Positions 28,477 through 62,136 of a stretch of 64,000 bases of DNA are shown here, one piece after another. The translations under genes were made by a program, and so were the position numbers. The notes under the pieces were generated by a model, which worked only from the letters and a program-made list of their open reading frames with translations, had not been told where the DNA came from and made no database searches. Every line of letters starts with the position of its first letter. The stretch's first letter is position 1. Source of the DNA: Tetrahymena thermophila SB210 (taxonomy: Eukaryota; Ciliophora; Oligohymenophorea; Hymenostomatida; Tetrahymenidae); assembly GCF_000189635.1 (NCBI RefSeq), contig NW_002476426.1:1488001-1552000 (forward strand), read 5' to 3'.

Positions 28477-30002
28477 TTGATTGATTGATTAATTAATTAA
28501 TTTGGTTTAATTTAGGATTAGTGAGTAATTCATAATTTATAAAAAATAAATTATAAAATATTTAATAAATAGCAATTAATTCTATATATTTATATTTTGT
28601 TTATTATTTATTTTTGCTATGAATATTTTGCTACTTAGATTTTTGAAAAATAAATTCAAATTTTTCTTTAAAAAACTCTTGATCACTTTTCAACAAAATT
28701 ATATTTTTTATATTAAATTTAAATTTTAATTAATAAATATTTTATTAATAATTTACACTTTGTATTTGTATTATTCACAGATAAAAAGCATAAAATACAA
28801 AATTTAAAAATATCAAAACACTTCAAGATAATTTTTTGTGATTGTAGGAAAAATAATGTATTAATAGGTAAGTCTAAATGAATTTTTTCAAATAAAATAA
28901 AAATATTTAGAATAACATATTAATCTCTATTTTGTTTTATTAACTTTATATGCTATTTCTTTATGATATACAATAAATGAAATTAGGATTTCCAATCTTA
29001 TTAATATATAAAATAAACTAAGATTATGTAAAATAAATAAAAAAATTTATTCACAAAAAAAAATTTCATTTTTTAGTTTTATTTAGCAAAAAATAACTGC
29101 TCCATTTTTCTTATTCTAAGTACAAAATCTTTTATCTTTAAAATGATTATCCAAATGTAATATTATTTAGGAGCATTAATTTCGTAATTTATTAATTGAT
29201 AAAAGGTTTATTTAATTTTTTTTTTCATTTTTATAAGTAAATTTCTAATTTATTCATCAAAGGTAGAGTTTTAATGACGCAATTTATAAAAATTAGTGAT
29301 TATTTAATACCTATATATTCTGGAGATCAAAGTAAAATATCACCATGAACTATTGTAATTAATTGATGGTATAATTGTGAAAGATTTTTTCTCTTCATCA
29401 AATTAATTTCATTTAAGTAACTAAAAAATCTTCTAATGCTTAACCAAAAATATGGTATTCCAAAAAATTTTTTGATTATTTTTGATAAGTTTAAAAGTGA
29501 TTTTATTTATAGAGAACAATTCGATATTTAATCTTAAAACAATCTAAGTATTAAATAATCAATTAATTTTGACGAATAACTAAAGTAAGTTAAAAAAAAT
29601 TACTTTAATAGTATTATTTACCTTGCTTTTAATTAATAATCAAATAAACTAATAGATTTAAGCTAGAGTCTTAATAATTTAAATTACACTTACAAAACCT
29701 GATAAAGTGATATAGTTAACATTAAAATAAAGCAAAAATTCTTAATTAAAAGATAAATGACGCTATTTAAATTCTTAAATTACATCATAAACACATTTTT
29801 TCTGGTTACAGAACTAAAACTGCTTCTAAATGATGTCATTTTATTTTGTTACTATTATAGCTTAAAAACTAACACTTTTGATATATTAAATATTCTAAAT
29901 TCTAATATTAAATTATAAAAGCTTAAAAAGATACAACATCTAAATTAATAAATCAATCACATTAATTTAACTAAATAATCTCGGCATTTTATTATAGTAA
30001 AT
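28477..30002. other. Intergenic, between two plus-strand genes
   Basis: About 1.5 kb, strongly A+T-rich. A slightly less A+T-rich patch on the minus strand near 29265-29400 contains a short frame (MVIFYFDLQNIQVLNNHQF) with no supporting signals. Otherwise nothing is seen; the promoter of the desaturase must lie here. Confidence 0.45.
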
Positions 30003-31120
30003 ATGCAAGTTTCAGTAAAAAAACACTAAAACTCTACTGAGGGCAAAATCAAGGAGTTTGCTCACAAAGAAAATACTAAAAATGATCCAATTCAAGAAAA
30101 AGAAGAAATAAGAGTTCCTGAGAGCATTTTTTTAGGAATCATGCATGTTCTTGCTTTTGCTGGTTTGATACTACTATTTACCTATGATAAATAGACAATA
30201 ATTAGATCTTTGTGCCTTATGGGTTTTCTCCATTACTTAAGTTGCTTGGGTATTGGATCTGGAGTTCACAGACTTTGGGCTCATCGTTCTTATAAAGCAA
30301 GTACTCCATACCGTGTTTTGTTGATGATTTTACAATCACTTGCATTTTAAGGGAGCATTTTCCATTGGTCTAGAGATCACAGATTGCACCACAAGTTCTC
30401 AGACACTGATTTAGATCCTCACTCTATGAATAGAGGATTCTTCTTTGCTCATATGGGGTGGCTTTTGGTTAAGAAGAGCAAAGCTTTAGTAGATGAAGGT
30501 TACAAAATTGATGTCTAGGATCTTTTAAATGACCCTGTTGTTAAATTCCAAAAGAAAAACTATTACAAGCTCTCAACATTAATTTGTTTTATTATTCCAA
30601 GTAAAATATTTTACCATTCATTTTAAATTTCTTGCACATAACCAAATATAGAAAAAAAGGAGTTAAACAAATAAAAAACAAATTAATTAAAATTCAACTT
30701 TTACTGTTTACAGATTATTACTTTTAATTACTTGAAAAATAATGTAAATATCTTTATTAACCCAAATTAAATTTATAAAAAGCCATTTTAAGCTACTTTA
30801 TTGTTGGAGGAAGCCTTATTTTTGGATTCTTAACTGCTGGTGTTTTTAGATATATTTTCATGCTCCACGTTACTTGGTGTGTAAATTCAGTTTGCCACAT
30901 GTTTGGAACAAGACCTTACAACCCTGATATTTTACCTACTGAAAACTTGTTTGTTTCTATTTTTGCTTGCGGTGAAGGATGGCATAATTGGCACCATGAA
31001 TACCCTAGAGACTGGAGAGCTTGCGAAAACAAATGGTATAAGTGGAATCCTAATGGCTGGTTTATATAAATTGCTGAATTACTTGGCTTTGCAAATACAC
31101 ATTTGGAAAAGGCATAATGA
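30003..31120 (+). CDS. Delta-9 acyl-CoA (stearoyl-CoA-type) desaturase, 321 aa
   Basis: Exons 30003-30600, 30714-30743 and 30783-31120. The first intron is 113 nt; the second is 39 nt and in frame, so retaining it would give 334 aa. The three histidine boxes of membrane desaturases are intact: HRLWAH, then HRLHHKFSDTDLDPHS, then GWHNWHHEYPRDW. Hydrophobic pairs flank them, as expected for a four-pass ER membrane enzyme. The family inserts a cis double bond at C9 of acyl-CoA using a di-iron centre, cytochrome b5 and O2. Between the second and third boxes FMLHVTWCVNSVCHMFGTRP matches the conserved 'NSxxHxxGxRP' block. No fused cytochrome b5 domain is present; the length is near the family's catalytic core. 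Removing the 39-nt segment gives a spacing closer to family members. Confidence 0.93.
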
Positions 31121-32108
31121 AAAAAAATATAAAATTTAATAAAAGTAAAGGTATAATAATAAGTATTAGCATTTATTTTATATGTTTTGTAAATAATTTA
31201 TTGAATCTCTTACTTACACACTAATCTTAATAAAATAAACATTTAATTTACAATTAAAAGTAAATAGTAAATTACAAATTTAACTAAAAATGAATGGTTG
31301 GTTGTTGCTAAAATGTACGTAATTATTTACTAACATGAATAATTTTTTACAAATGATGATTTTAATTAATAAACAAATAATAAATGATATAATTAACTAA
31401 AATTTCTTTTATATAATAAATCTTATTTCTTTTATATCATTTACGCTTATACATATTTATAATATGTTTTTAGATACTTAGTTAGTTATCTAGCTAACTA
31501 GCTAATTAAACACCATAAAAATTAAAATAAAAACTTATAATTATTAATTGATTATCTTTTTTTTTATTTAATATTTTAAATAATTAAAATTAAATTGCTA
31601 ACTAATTCTTTTTAAGAATAAAATTATTTTTTTTATTTAAAAAGAAGCTAATCTTTTATCAATAAATAAAATTATCTTTAAAATAGCTTATTTATTTATC
31701 TTAATATTTAATCATTTTAATCTTACTTCTAAAATACTTTAGAAATATAAAATTTTTTAAAATATAACTTGACCAGTTACTTTTGTATTATTTGTTTTGA
31801 TTTTGTCTAAAAATATTCTAAAACAATTATTTAAAATGGTTGTATTAAAATTTTGTTAATTCATTCCATAAAAAAAATACACTAATTGCTTGAAATTAAA
31901 TTTACATTAAATTTTAGTAATTTAGCAGTAGAATTATTACTATTTTAAGTTAAAAATAAACTAAAATATCTTTTTAATTGAATTTACATCTTCTAAAAGA
32001 ACTCTTCAGAAAAATCAATACTTTAAAATCAATTTCTAATAACGAAAAGAAAAATCGAGATTTTAATTTATATTAAAAGTAGAAAGAAATACTAATAAAT
32101 AGCTAGCA
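31121..32108. other. Intergenic, between two plus-strand genes
   Basis: About 1 kb, A+T-rich. A small imperfect hairpin lies at 31479-31500 (arms TAGTTAG / CTAACTA, 8-nt loop) about 360 bases past the desaturase stop. No other feature. Confidence 0.45.
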
Positions 32109-43003: not shown

Positions 43004-46000
43004 ATGTTTAGAAAGTAAAAAGATTCTGTCAAAGTTGCAGATTTGATCATCTTCTGCAACGAAAAGGATTCTTAATAGTATTTAGTATTTGATTTAAAAT
43101 ATGGTGATAATATTATAGGAAAGAATAGCTCTCTTTGCTCAATAGTGCTTCGCTTTACAGATGAAATAGATGATGTTCACACTAAAATAAGCATTGAAGA
43201 CGACGATTATACAATCGAAGATTTAGGTTCTTAGAAGGGTACTTTTAAGATCAAGTCTGATAATAGTTTAATACGTCTGAAACCCAATAAATCTTATGAT
43301 CTTTCAAATAACCACATATTCTACATTGGAAAATACAAGTAAAAAAATATTTAATGTTTTTATTTAATCACATTTATTATAATCATCTAGATGTAAGTTT
43401 TAAATAGTTAAACCTGGCAGAGCAATGGCCTTTTCTTTAAGTCCAACTGACATATTGAATAGTTAAAAGAATAATAGCAACACTTCTGCACCTCAAAATG
43501 CAATAACTAATAGCAAAAGAGGTTCCAAAAAGATATAAAGCTATGAGGATGATATAGAAGATTATACTGATTTACCTTCTAAATAGTAGCACAAAAAAAA
43601 CTAAATCTCTTCTAAGATTATTTAAAACCGCTTAGAAGCTGAAAATATTGATGAAGAGGAAGATGAAAAACATTTTTAGAAGATTAATAATAGTAAGACT
43701 GCTTTAGCATCAAGCACTGCATAATCAAAAAAAGCTCAAAACACCTAAAAAAATTTTGTGAAATCAAAAGGATAACTTGCTAAAGGAATAAAAGGAGCCT
43801 TTAAGAATGATTAAAAAGATGAGTAAAAAATAATGATTTAAAAAACAACAAAATAATGAGTATTTTATTATAAATAGGGATTCAAATTTAAAAAAAGAAG
43901 ATATTTATGATATAACAGATACTCAGCTTTATAAAGTTTCTGATGAAGAGGAAGAGGACTGCGATTTTTAGTTTAGCTTTCCTAAATCATTTAAAAAAAG
44001 CAACAACCATGAAGAAGAATAAGCTACCAGAAAGAGAGCTGCAAGTAATAAAAAGAATAATGGAATTTAAACTTAATAAGAATAACATGATGAGGATTCG
44101 ATGAAGCTGGATTCACAGTTTTTAAAAAGAATTTAGGATAAGTTAAAGAATTCTGAAATTAATGAATAAAGAAAGGTTATTAATGATTTAGCATAAAAGT
44201 ACAGTTCACAAAAAAACACATAAAAGCAAAGTTAAGACATTCCTTTTGAAGATAAAAAAGAAAAATCAAATTCTTTAGAGAAAAAAGAAAGTGAAGATTA
44301 TTGGTCTCCTTCAACTTTAAAAAGAAAAAATACCACTAAACCCTAAGCTACTACTGATAAAACTAAATCAAAAACTCTTAATAAAATAGATAAAAATGAA
44401 AATGAGCCAATCAAAGTAGAATCTTCTAAAAAAGCCTCAAAATAAAAAGAGCAAACAATTAACTAAGAGCCAACTAATAAAAAAAATTCAAAGAAATAAG
44501 TAGAAGATTAAGAAATATAAGAGGAGCCAAAAAAAAAAGAAGTAGCTTCCAAAAGCAAAAAAGATTTGAAATTACAATAAAAAAAAGATGATAAAATGGA
44601 AAAACTAAAGCAGTAAGCAGAAAATGTCTTAAATACAATTAAAAACTCAAACTAATCTAAAAAATAAGATGATGAATAAGCTGATAAATCAAAAATTAAA
44701 TAAAAAGATTAGAGTGCAAAAAACAAAACTAAAAGCAAAACAGTTGATGATAGCACATCAATCAGCGATCAAAATTAAGAAGATGAAGAATATAGCATGG
44801 AAGAGGAAGACTTTCAATCTCAAAGTTAAAAAATAGCTAAATCCATTTCTACTAGAAAAAGAAAATATGATGATTTAATGACTTAGCCAACTAAACAAGA
44901 ACCCATAAAAAATTCAAAATCAAAGGAACAAAAAACAAAGCAGACTGTAAATGATAAAGAAAAAACAAAAGCAGCAGTTACTGCTATTAAGGAAGAAACA
45001 CCTTAAAAAGGAAAAAATTCAGATGCTAAAAAGAAGCAATCAAAGGAAACACCTAAAGCTGCAAATTCCAAAGAAACAAAAATAACTGAAGAACAAAAGA
45101 AGTCTAAATCATAAAATAATAAATAATAAAAAAAAGAATCACATGATAAATAGGTTGAAAAGATAGAAGAAGAGTAACCTGCGTCATTAAGAAGGAGTAC
45201 AAGAAAGGCTTAAGTCGAAGATGAAGAAAAACAAGAAAAAACTACTAAAAAGAGTGTTTCAAAAATTGTTTAGAAGACATCAGCAAAAAAAAGCACTTCT
45301 AAAAAATAAACTAAAAAAGAAAGCTCTGACGAAGGAGAATAAGAAGAAGAAAGCTAAATGGAAATAGAAGAAACAAAACCAACTAGAAAAAGTGCTAGAA
45401 AATCCATTTTGAAAGAATCATATAGCGATAATAAATAGTAAAATGAAGATTAAAAATCAAAAGATTAGGCTAAGAAGAGCAAACAAACTGAAAAAGCTAC
45501 TGCAAAGTCTAAAAAAGACACTCAAAAGCCTAAGAGTTTAATAAGAAGAACTTTAGGATCTAAAAAAGAAGCTTTGCTGCTTTAACAATCTGCAGGAATC
45601 ATCATGGATATACCAAGAAGAAATAAATTCAGAATAATATTTTCTAATAGTTCTATTACAGATGAAGAGAAAAAAGAAATGTCTACTTATGGAGTGAAAA
45701 TTCTTAATGACTTTCATAGTGCTAACGATTTTAATATTTTAGTTACTGACGAATTTAAAAGAAGACTAAAAACTTTAGTTGCATTAAATAAAGGTTATCC
45801 AATTATATCTCAAAATTGGATCAAAGAGTGTATTAAAGAAGACAAAATAGTTCCATATGAACCTTTTATAATAACCAAAGTAGATAAGGCTTTAGCTAAG
45901 TAGCATAATTTTGAGTTGAAAAAAAGTATTAACAATTAAAAAGACCATCCCGAAGGAATTTTACATGGACTAACTTTTGTTTGTCAAAACTCTTTTGATA

Positions 46001-46257
46001 ACCTAAACAAAGAAGAAGTGAGAAAGCTTGTAGAAAGCGCTGGTGGTAGCTTCTTGTATGAAAAACCTAAACATACCTCAGCATATTTCTTAAGTGATCC
46101 TTCAAAAACAGAGTATAACAAGTAATAGAATGAAAGTAATGAAATAGTTTTAGATATTGAGGGATTGCTATAGACATGCTTATTGTAGTATAATGTTTTA
46201 GACAATTACATAATAACAACACCAGCCAAAGAGAAAAAATCAACCAAGAAAAAATGA
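43004..46257 (+). CDS. FHA and tandem-BRCT protein, MDC1-like architecture, 1,048 aa
   Basis: Exons 43004-43338, 43391-43822 and 43878-46257; introns of 52 and 55 nt, phases close to one frame. Residues about 20-115 form an FHA domain (YLVFDLKYGDNIIGKNSSLC, DDVHTKISIEDDDYTIEDLG, SQKGTFKI), a phosphothreonine-binding fold. The usual Arg of 'GRN' is Lys and the usual 'SxxH' Ser is missing, so binding may be altered. Residues about 120-820 are Lys/Ser/Glu-rich, disordered and rich in SQ/TQ. Two BRCT repeats end the protein: about 838-925 (FRIIFSNSSITDEEKKEMST, GYPIISQNWIKECIKEDKIV) and about 948-1035 (GLTFVCQNSFDNLNKEEVRK, LVESAGGSF). FHA plus long linker plus C-terminal tandem BRCT is the layout of MDC1, the reader of phosphorylated H2A.X at DNA breaks. 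A DNA-damage scaffold role is inferred from architecture only. Confidence 0.85.
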
Positions 46258-58214: not shown

Positions 58215-60942
58215 TTATTTAAATAATTTATATGCTTGTTATCTTTTAAGTTGATTACTAGGAGTAACTAAGCCAAGAATTGAGAAGGGTGTAGTTTCAA
58301 TATGAATCTTTTGAACGATTTCATACGAAAAGAGCTTTTGCTTTTGAGCTAATTTTTGTATATCTGAAATAATATCTACTTTTACTTAAGGGTGCCTACA
58401 GTTTTAAATATAAGAAGATGTTGGAAGACCATATTCTTTAGCTATCAAATCCACAAGATCTTTTTTAGGAACTACCACTGCTACTAAATATTTCTAAATT
58501 GGTGAACCATATATACAGATATCTGTTATGGAATTCACTTGCTAATATATTCTCTCCAATTTTTCTGGACTTACATATTCTCCTTGAGGCATCTTAAAAA
58601 TATTCTTCCTATTGTCTATTTTTTATTTTATGTGTTATGTTAAATATGAAGGCTTGATAAATAGTTTTTACCTATTATCTTTATTGATCCGTTAGGTAAA
58701 AGCTGAACAATATCCCCAGTATGGAGCCAACCATTTTTATCGATTTCTTTTGATGTTTATTCTTATTCTCTAAAATAACCTTCAAATATACCAGGTCCTC
58801 TAAGGCAAAGCTCACCACGTATTATTTTTTAACCTGTTTCATCTATGTCGTCATTTGTATATCCCAATTCAATAACATCAATTATTTTGAATTCTTTTAT
58901 TTTATGATATTCTAATTTATTTAAATTTTTGAAAAATAAATGTAAAACCTGTGTTCAGAGTTGGACCTCCAACATGACCTTCTGATGAATCTAAGGCATT
59001 TGTTATAAAAGCTAAACCAGTAGATTAAGTGCATCCATATCTAATTTAGTAAAGAAATTTGATTTTTTAATTTTTTATGAATTTAATTTTACGCTTATAT
59101 TATAGGAACTCCATAAACAAGTTTCAGTGTTTGGTGGACATGCGAAAACAAAGGGGCAGAAGATGAAAATGCTAACCTAAGGCGTCCTCCAAGGGAATTT
59201 CTAAAACTCTTAAAAATGATATTATCATAAAATGTATGCTTGACATCAGCTGTTGGAGATTATCTATGAGCTTACAGCTTTTATTCTAAGGCTTTTTCGT
59301 TTATCCATCTTTCAACACCCTCCGTCTTCTTAAAGTATTTATCCTATATAGTCTGGTAGAGTTTATTATAAAATGAAGGAACAGAGCAAAATATAGTGGG
59401 ACGAAGTATAAACATGTCATCAATTAATGTAGAAATTTCTCCGCTATAAAATCCTATTGATGCTCCTGCATATAGAGCAGCATAAATTGATACTTTTTCA
59501 TATATATGGCTTAGGGGAAGATAACTTAAATAAACATCATCTTATTAAGGTTTTAAATGAGAAATATTCCAAACACTTGCTAAAAAGCTAACAAAATTCC
59601 TATGGCTAAGCATTGCTGCTATAGGCTTACCATTATCTTGTCTTGTTGTATAGCAAAATGATTAAATGTTATCAGGTGATATCTTAGGAAATGGAATAGT
59701 TGGTAATTGAGCTCCTTTATCTATAACAAATTTAAGTGTAATTACATTAATTCCAATTTAATCTGTGAAAAATTTTTGCAAAATTGATGGTATAAACTCA
59801 TCAAAGCAAATTATATTTTAAAGATTTCCAAGTGACATTACAACTTATGCTTTCTAAGAGCTTCTAATCATTCTATACAGTCTTTCAAGTTCATTTCTAC
59901 CACAAAAAATTGAAGATAGCTGTGTATCCTCGAGGATAAATGATAAATCTGATGCATGTATCTACTCAGGTATAGGAACAGTGACATTATTGTACAACAC
60001 ATTGGCACAATCAACAATAACCCATTCTTCTCTGCTTCTAGACCAAATACCAACTAAGTCTAGAGTTTATTTTTCTTGCTCGTCGTTTTATTCAGTAAGC
60101 TAAAGTGACCTTATTCCTGTTGCTAAATTTTTGACTGTATTGAAAAGGTCTTTGTATGTTTTCCAACAATATTCTCCTCCTTTTGCCATTTATTTAGCTC
60201 CCATCAAACTACTCTTTCCATTAGTTAATATAGAAGCTTTTTGCAGCTCAAATTTCTTATTTTCAATATCAATTAAAGTTTATTTCTCTGTAAAAGATAA
60301 ATTTGTAGACAATTATATTTATTGTATTCTTTTTTGTCTTTCATATTCTGTTTTAGCACCACCAAAATCTTACTGGTAAACAATATTTTAGAAGCTAAGA
60401 TTAGCGTTACTTTCATTATTACTCTAATCATTATATTAGCCTTATGTTTAAGTCTTTAAAAGACCGTTATTTCTAGAAACACTAAAATATTATTAATTAG
60501 CTTGAGTAGGATTAGTCTTTTGTTAGTTATTAGATGGATTAGCTATATTTAATTCAATATTTGTTTGATTAGTTACCATGTAACCTCCTCCACCACAACA
60601 ATTTAAATCATCTATCGATTGTTAATACATAGAATTGACTTGATTCTGTTTAAGTACAGCTTGCGAAGAGTTTCTAATGATCTCCTATCCATTTGCATTT
60701 GAATTAAATCCTTAAGTTGATAATAATCCTGAAGGATTAGGTAATAATCTCGTACCTAGACATTGCCTATGTTCAAATCGTGTGAATGTTTTCAAAATAG
60801 CATCTTGCATAGTTTATATTTCATAATGTGGTGTAATAACTAAACTATCTGTGCACAAAGGATGCCTGTAAATGCAAGATTCCCCAGGAACTTTATCACT
60901 GATAGGAACAGAATAAACTATCTCGCTTTTTGTGTTTCCCAT
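58182..60942 (-). CDS. Long-chain acyl-CoA synthetase-like protein with altered active-site motifs, 865 aa
   Basis: Exons on the minus strand 60942-59093, 59040-58949, 58893-58672 and 58615-58182; introns 52, 55 and 56 nt GT-AG, phases close. The start MGNTKSEIVYSVP fits the N-myristoylation consensus (Gly2, Ser6). Residues 60-200 are Asn/Gln/Ser-rich. The AMP-binding enzyme body follows: WKTYKDLFNTVKNLATGIRS, GIWSRSREEWVIVDCA, DDVYLSYLPLSHIYEK, GGRLRLAFSSSAPL, RGELCLRGPGIFEGYFRE, GWLHTGDIVQLLPNGSIKII, DNRKNIFKMPQGEYVSPEKL. This order and the IIDNRKNIFK block mark long-chain acyl-CoA synthetases. Two key motifs differ: the phosphate loop 'YTSGTTGxPKG' is CYTTRQDNGKPIAAML, and the Glu of 'YGxTE' is Gln (AYGCTQSTG). 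ATP use may therefore be changed or lost. The N-myristoyl site suggests membrane tethering instead of a transmembrane anchor. Confidence 0.9.
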
Positions 60943-62136
60943 TTAACTTCTAATTAATTTTTATGATTTATCTAAAACACTTAAGATAGTAATCTCTTTA
61001 AAAGTGCTACTTATTTAATTTTATTGAATGAATTATTTTAACGAATTAGTTTTTATTTTCTACTTAATGAAAAAGTTCTATTAATTTTTGAATTCTTTAT
61101 TAATAATTTATTTGATTTGATGAATTAAAAAATTGATCTTCTATGTTTGTTGTAAACATAAAAACATATCTTTTGCTAAATTCTAATATTCATAAAAATA
61201 ATTAATTTTTTTTAAATTTTAAGTGTTTTCTTTTTTCACAATTATATGCAACAAACACTAAATTAAAAATTTTATGTTTAAAATCCTTTTCTTAAATTTC
61301 TTAAATTTAATTAAAAATAATTATTTGTAAATTTTTCTAATTCTATCTAATAAATAATTTAAATATTTAAAAAAACAATCAAATTTTTAAAAAATCTTCA
61401 CATTATTTTTTTAAATTTAACTAAAATATTTTTTGAAAATATTAGATTGGCAATAAATAAATAAATCATTTTTAAATCCTAAATTTAATAAAAAAAATAT
61501 AATTTAAAAATATTTAAATAGTTATTTTAACAATAATATTGAACACTAAATTTAAAATTTATATTAAAAACCCATTTCCTAAATTCCTTAAATTAAATTA
61601 AAATAATTATTTATAAACTTTTACAATCCTATTCTATAATAGACTTAGATATTTATAAATAAGATTACGAATACATTTTAAATTTTTTAGAAAACAATAA
61701 TTTATTAATTTTCTTATAAAAAATTAATTCTATTTAACATTATTAGATGAACTAATTAATAACTGTAAAATTTTTATATTTTACAAGTATTTTAAGTTGT
61801 AATTTTATTTTAGTGTTTTAGACAAGATAGCTAAATTTAAAATTTTATAAAAATAATAAGAAATAATGTTAGCTTAAACTATGAAAATAATTGATTAAAA
61901 CTACATTTTTATAAACAATATAAAAATTTTGTTAAGATTATAAATTTATTTAATAGTAAAAAATTTTTTGAAAATATTTGTCAGAGATAGCTTATTTAAA
62001 TTAAAAACAATTTTCATTTGCGAAATTTGAATACTCAGCAAGTAATAAATTATAAATTTATTACATATTTGCTTACTCACTTATTTAGTTTTATTTGAAA
62101 TATTTTTGGTGAAAAATTTCAAAATTTTCTTCACAA
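60943..62136. other. Intergenic, between two minus-strand genes
   Basis: 1.2 kb, very A+T-rich, containing the promoter of the acyl-CoA synthetase-like gene and the 3' flank of the gene ending at 62137. Short A/T-rich phrases (for example around 61260-61330 and 61545-61620: 'CACTAAATTAAAAATTT' and 'CACTAAATTTAAAATTT') recur, an inexact local duplication. No gene seen. Confidence 0.5.

Follow-up and report, generated by a model that had tools for sequence, protein, structure and literature searches.

An FHA/tandem-BRCT gene of Tetrahymena thermophila and its three paralogues: a putative MDC1-like family with conserved histone-tail contact positions

In metazoan MDC1 (MU2 in Drosophila), an N-terminal FHA domain, which is present in all 119 of the 119 metazoan MDC1 proteins analysed in PMC11014961, is joined by a long linker to a C-terminal tandem BRCT, while the TQxF repeats of animals and the SDTD repeats of vertebrates are not counted as ancestral in that paper. 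The phosphate of the ligand is held by MDC1 T1898 and K1936 (S392 and K434 in Mdb1 from Schizosaccharomyces pombe) and the carboxylate by R1933 (R431 in Mdb1) (PMC4013092, PMC8651625), and E2063 of MDC1 pairs with R1933 (PMC11014961). Mdb1 likewise ends in a gamma-H2A-binding BRCT pair. The authors of the Mdb1 study assign the MDC1 family to animals and fungi, and they draw attention to proteins with the same order of FHA and tandem BRCT in two amoebozoans, Dictyostelium and Polysphondylium (EAL70982 and EFA74881; PMC4013092), which are likened to the present protein by that description. In the plant protein BCP4, too, a disordered N-terminal part is followed by a C-terminal tandem BRCT that binds gamma-H2A.X, but BCP4 is described in PMC11014961 as having no FHA, as having TQx-phi motifs and as having Asn at the K1936 position. 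The subject of this study is a gene in a 64,000-nucleotide stretch of the T. thermophila SB210 genome (contig NW_002476426.1, positions 1,488,001–1,552,000), hereafter the window, the product of which shares the overall layout of MDC1 and is probably a nuclear MDC1-like scaffold whose BRCT pair reads the phosphorylated tail of H2A.X.

Read with code 6, the gene occupies positions 43004–46257 on the plus strand as three exons in three frames rather than as one open frame, and encodes 1048 residues from the ATG at 43004 to a TGA ending at 46257; the splice sites of the two GT..AG introns are predicted from sequence and frame, without the use of transcripts. The initial annotation had proposed an N-terminal FHA, a linker and a C-terminal BRCT pair as in MDC1, and this layout is confirmed by Pfam, which recognizes the FHA (PF00498, E 5.8e-6, 27.1 bits with a cut-off of 20.7) and both BRCTs through BRCT_2 (PF16589, E 2.8e-12, 47.2 bits, cut-off 27.3), BRCT (PF00533, E 2.4e-11, 44.1 bits, cut-off 21.3) and RTT107_BRCT_5 (36.1 bits, cut-off 27.0). 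Approximately 700 residues lie between the FHA and the BRCTs. Compared with Mdb1, the protein is longer (1048 versus 624 residues), its FHA is still recognized by Pfam, whereas the N-terminal module of Mdb1 is reported in a title as a divergent FHA, and it has three paralogues.

These paralogues, which are newly found, were obtained by searching the 101-Mb assembly (445 contigs, including the window) with the window BRCT pair, which returned the window gene and three others, on contigs C97 (L038), C140 (L039) and C188 (L040). The telomerase p65 reading frame of this assembly agrees at every one of 542 residues with PDB 6D6V chain H, a T. thermophila protein, which identifies the genome as that of this species. 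The C140 query returns all four members and the C188 query three of the four (not C97), neither returning non-members; queries were drawn from the window gene, C140 and C188, so that relatives visible only from C97 would be missed. The BRCT pairs are 21–34% identical to one another over aligned columns, and 24–31% identical to that of the window protein. An FHA-like stretch lies upstream on the same strand in each of the three (Pfam FHA scores of 20.2 bits for C97, just below the cut-off of 20.7, 21.8 for C140 and 40.6 for C188). The FHA and BRCTs of C140 fall within one open frame, whereas in C97 and C188 they sit in separate open frames, and we therefore only infer that each of these two loci is a single gene. 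The linkers range from about 120 residues in C140 to over 900 in C188.

The idea of a histone-tail reader is supported by the BRCT pair. The window protein shares with MDC1, by sequence, the four gamma-H2AX contact positions (T/S1898, R1933, K1936 and E2063), and with Mdb1 the equivalents of S392, R431 and K434, binding by the ciliate pair being predicted; the equivalences of Ser845, Arg884 and Lys887 come from the alignment with Mdb1, and that of Glu1017 from the alignment of C188 with MDC1 T2067D. Aligned with one another, the four BRCT pairs have 194 gap-free columns, of which 16 are invariant, these four among them. The chance that four given columns are all invariant would be 3e-5 if columns were independent, which they are not, so that the value is a guide only. 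A missing phospho-pocket, named at the outset as the result that would speak against the proposal, is thus not what the sequences give: all four of these contacts are invariant in four of the four genes. The structural model of the BRCT pair, with its low confidence for the second repeat (Table 1), does not allow a judgement on the pocket itself.

A ligand for the pair exists, because the genome encodes an H2A (L023, C391:165634-165924, minus strand) with the tail ...KTESRGQASQDL, ending RGQASQDL, which is the H2A.X-type SQ tail that had been expected of a ciliate; a second H2A (L022, C212) lacks an SQ tail and ends KKSTEPEH. On contig C214 there are two FAT-domain matches, which are consistent with PI3K-like kinase genes. 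A PI3K-like kinase would phosphorylate the H2A.X tail (...pSQDL) at DNA breaks, and the window BRCT pair would bind the free C-terminal pSQDL tail, with the phosphate gripped by Ser845 and Lys887 and the terminal carboxylate by Arg884, which Glu1017 would steady. Partners would be tethered by the long charged linker, and the FHA, having lost its usual phosphothreonine contacts, would most likely dimerize the protein or bind a partner in another way, for which the title on Mdb1 offers a precedent. The protein would act beside its three paralogues of the same layout, presumably in the nucleus and at meiotic or developmental breaks; a run of RKRK at residue 582 is a possible nuclear signal.

Canonical phosphothreonine-binding FHA domains carry the Arg of a GR motif, the Ser of an SxxH motif and the Asn of an NG motif. 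MDC1 and the window protein differ in this respect, since in the window FHA the three are replaced by Lys, Asp and Lys, respectively; the change from GR to GK and the missing SxxH Ser noted in the initial annotation are real, and the NG Asn is changed as well. Across the four paralogues the Arg is kept in none (Lys, Ser, Thr and Ser), the Ser in one and the Asn in none, whereas the His is kept in all four. As controls, the best eight of 41 FHA matches in the genome, none of them family members, have GR in four cases, GK in two and the SxxH Ser in seven. A missing Arg alone is therefore not special in this genome, and Tetrahymena may have many non-canonical FHAs, because four of the eight strongest FHA matches (L001–L008) lack the GR Arg; judged against the control FHAs, it is the combined loss that is special to the four-gene family. 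The idea that recognition may have shifted is thus better put as a family-wide loss of the usual phosphothreonine contacts. Searched by itself, the window FHA has no convincing match in sequence (the first, to an antibody chain with E 0.015, is due to chance, and an MDC1 FHA follows at 0.056), and a profile of the four FHAs placed the FHA of an 'adenylate cyclase-like protein' first (2e-8), followed by four MDC1 FHA rows (2.2e-4 to 4.3e-4). The divergent FHA of fission yeast Mdb1 reportedly mediates dimerization, going by the title of the 2015 article by Luo. Because the usual contacts are lost across the family and because of this precedent, dimerization or another non-canonical contact is more likely for the window FHA. 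It is distinctly less likely that the domain binds a phosphorylated partner through a site that is shifted or built on Lys and that it recruits MRN, as the FHA of Drosophila MU2 does in interacting with MRN (PMC2672170); this proposal concerns the FHA only, and is compatible with a gamma-H2A.X-reading BRCT pair. The Lys at the usual Arg position and the GK of two of the eight control FHAs would suit such a site, but the position is variable among the paralogues, and the Ser and Asn are largely or wholly lost there while the Ser is kept in most other FHAs.

With the window BRCT pair as the query, the top matches of phmmer are four distinct MDC1 sequences (the best at E 1.6e-6), followed by Mdb1 (1e-5) and then BRCA1 and Crb2, and the best solved-structure match is MDC1 or Mdb1 for three of the four paralogues. 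Several results limit the case for a gamma-H2A.X reader of the MDC1 type. A profile of the four BRCT pairs scores BRCA1 (3.3e-12), Mdb1 (3.5e-12), BARD1 (4e-11) and PTIP (4e-10) all above MDC1 (3.6e-6), and the fold scores are nearly tied; for both of these reasons orthology to MDC1 is unproven. The C140 pair matches only BARD1 at E <= 0.01, and BRCA1 binds internal pSxxF ligands through the equivalent Ser, Lys and Arg (PMC3380633, PMC8651625). The position of R1932, a reported pSer+2 contact, is Lys in the window protein (Lys, Thr, Arg and Lys across the four), and that of G1899 is Asn in three of the four; since these lesser contacts are not conserved, confidence in the preferred explanation is slightly lower. 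The likeness to PTIP is no argument against such a reader, because PTIP itself binds gamma-H2AX (PMC8651625).

It is accordingly conceivable, but unlikely, that the protein is a nuclear reader in the style of BRCA1, BARD1 or PTIP which recognizes internal pS-x-x-hydrophobic motifs elsewhere and not gamma-H2A.X. The shared Ser, Lys and Arg, the family profile and the BARD1 match of C140 would all suit such a reader, as would the residue at the position of MDC1 T2067 and BRCA1 D1840 in C188, which is Asp; against it, the window protein has a neutral Gln there (Asn in C97 and Leu in C140), its pair is matched best by MDC1 and Mdb1, and the SQDL tail is present in the genome to be read. BRCA1, moreover, is not known to have an N-terminal FHA. 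An Asp at the position of MDC1 T2067 is reported to disfavour a free carboxylate (Campbell 2010), and on that view the window protein would be MDC1-like and C188 BRCA1-like.

The linker of the window protein, unlike that of MDC1, contains no TQxF and no SDT by motif count, with one TQx-hydrophobic, and the pattern P[ST]xxP, which does not model PST repeats as such, has no match in the protein. In a 720-residue linker segment, in which Lys accounts for 20% (145 of 720), 14 SQ/TQ sites are found, whereas 13.6 are expected from composition-preserving shuffles (standard deviation 3.2), half of which reach 14; shifting the segment by 10 residues gives an expectation of 13.4. The description of the linker as SQ/TQ-rich is therefore withdrawn, as the number is what composition predicts, although it is correct that such sites are hidden under the standard code, TAA or TAG encoding the Gln in 11 of the 17 SQ/TQ sites of the whole protein. 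In ciliates that read TAA/TAG as Gln, Q-rich motifs are expanded across the proteome (PMC10942620). Nor are SQ/TQ sites significantly enriched in the paralogue linkers (one versus 5.3 expected in C97, three versus 1.9 in C140 and 21 versus 19.6 in C188, the counts for C97 and C188 covering only part of each linker).

The C188 linker carries eight [DE]KTL[EQ][LI] repeats, six of which are followed by SD. With patterns that were picked after the sequence had been viewed, it contains eight [DE]KTL versus 0.06 expected, and a broader TL-motif pattern matches it 13 times versus 0.33 expected; SDx[DE] is found seven times versus 1.4 expected, compared with four versus 0.6 in C97 and one versus 1.0 in the window linker, in which the motif count finds none of the C188-type repeats. 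These repeats are possible phospho-Thr/CK2 docking sites, and a possible counterpart of the SDTD array of MDC1. TL(I/L/V)D motifs form a further, distinct set in the C188 linker. A more speculative proposal, which we regard as improbable in its full form, is that the MDC1 job is split among four gamma-H2A.X-reading scaffolds serving different breaks or nuclei (vegetative damage, breaks of the germline nucleus at meiosis and programmed excision as the somatic nucleus develops), with FHAs that dimerize or pair without binding phosphothreonine and with the eight-fold KTL[EQ][LI] array of C188 as a signalling platform.

It is very improbable that the window gene encodes a diverged form of NBS1, the MRE11-complex subunit with FHA and BRCT domains, and this identity was rejected on layout: an FHA and two BRCTs are present, and with the exception of the window gene and C188 no FHA match lies less than 20 kb from a BRCT match, so that no separate NBS1 is seen (in incomplete lists, from which the FHAs of C97 and C140 were also absent), but NBS1 has a contiguous N-terminal FHA-BRCT1/2 (PMC8079451), unlike the widely separated FHA and C-terminal BRCTs found here. 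Genome searches with Mre11_DNA_bind and NIBRIN_BRCT_II gave no match, but gave none in control genomes either and are uninformative, and the absence of NBS1 among 50 fold-list rows is not evidence of difference.

The four genes are thus of one FHA–tandem-BRCT layout with all four contacts invariant, and it is probable that they form an uncharacterized family of gamma-H2A.X readers in a model ciliate. In Tetrahymena, gamma-H2A.X has been observed at breaks during meiosis and in early anlagen (PMC4437310), and among the matches listed in the open-access literature, subscription papers being mostly outside this scope, no MDC1-type reader is described for a ciliate. The family is worth testing, because gamma-H2A.X is an established subject of study in Tetrahymena and all four genes are open to tagging: with their intact histone-tail contacts they are direct targets in a model organism and a testable candidate for the reading of DNA damage in ciliates. 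Confirmation would extend to ciliates a scaffold of FHA plus tandem BRCT that has been described to date in animals, fungi (with a divergent FHA) and amoebozoa (PMC4013092), and the scaffold would therefore probably be ancient in eukaryotes, with recruitment motifs rebuilt by lineage. Scans of viral and prokaryotic contigs confirmed no relatives outside the Tetrahymena genome and, given the nature of these collections, carry no information on distribution among eukaryotes.

Table 1. Coordinates of the gene, its domains and predicted contact residues (window positions), and of the paralogous BRCT matches (contig positions). pLDDT, predicted local distance difference test.
Feature	Position	Strand	Basis or remark
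Exon 1: start codon and almost entire FHA domain (Pfam residues 37–109, about 43112–43330)	43004..43338	+	
Intron 1, 52 nt, GTAAAA...TAG	43339..43390	+	sequence and frame
Exon 2: end of FHA region and start of linker	43391..43822	+	
Intron 2, 55 nt, GTAAAA...TAG	43823..43877	+	sequence and frame
Exon 3: Lys/Ser/Glu/Gln-rich linker, tandem BRCT, TGA stop	43878..46257	+	
BRCT 1, about residues 840–921	45628..45873	+	Pfam; model pLDDT mostly 70–89
Ser845, predicted phosphoserine pocket (MDC1 T1898, Mdb1 S392)	45643..45645	+	alignments; contact from PMC4013092, PMC8651625
Arg884, predicted C-terminal carboxylate contact (MDC1 R1933, Mdb1 R431)	45760..45762	+	alignments; contact from PMC8651625
Lys887, predicted phosphate contact (MDC1 K1936, Mdb1 K434)	45769..45771	+	alignments; contact from PMC4013092, PMC8651625
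BRCT 2, Pfam residues 946–1012, drawn to about residue 1032	45946..46206	+	Pfam; model confidence low
Glu1017, predicted Arg partner (MDC1 E2063)	46159..46161	+	alignments; contact from PMC11014961
C97 (L038) BRCT match	C97:746179-746634	minus	34% over match, E 1e-20
C140 (L039) BRCT match	C140:269064-269519	minus	29%, E 8e-15
C188 (L040) BRCT match	C188:139516-139941 (locus 138000-146000)	minus	29%, E 1e-10

Other BRCT genes of the genome, named by eye from their translations, include an RFC1-like gene (L009), a multi-BRCT protein (L035) and two FCP1-like phosphatases that carry a BRCT at the C-terminus (L010 and L011). A BRCT partner of Asf1 has been mentioned for Tetrahymena without a name (Garg 2013, cited in PMC5482572); none of the four genes could be matched with it, and in the passages of the review PMC6562869 on the third Asf1-interacting protein no domain is named for that protein. 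Elsewhere in the window, eight of the ten long open reading frames that were scanned have no Pfam match at E <= 0.001, and the other two match a fatty acid desaturase (29757–31769, plus strand) and an AMP-binding enzyme (58324–61740, minus strand).
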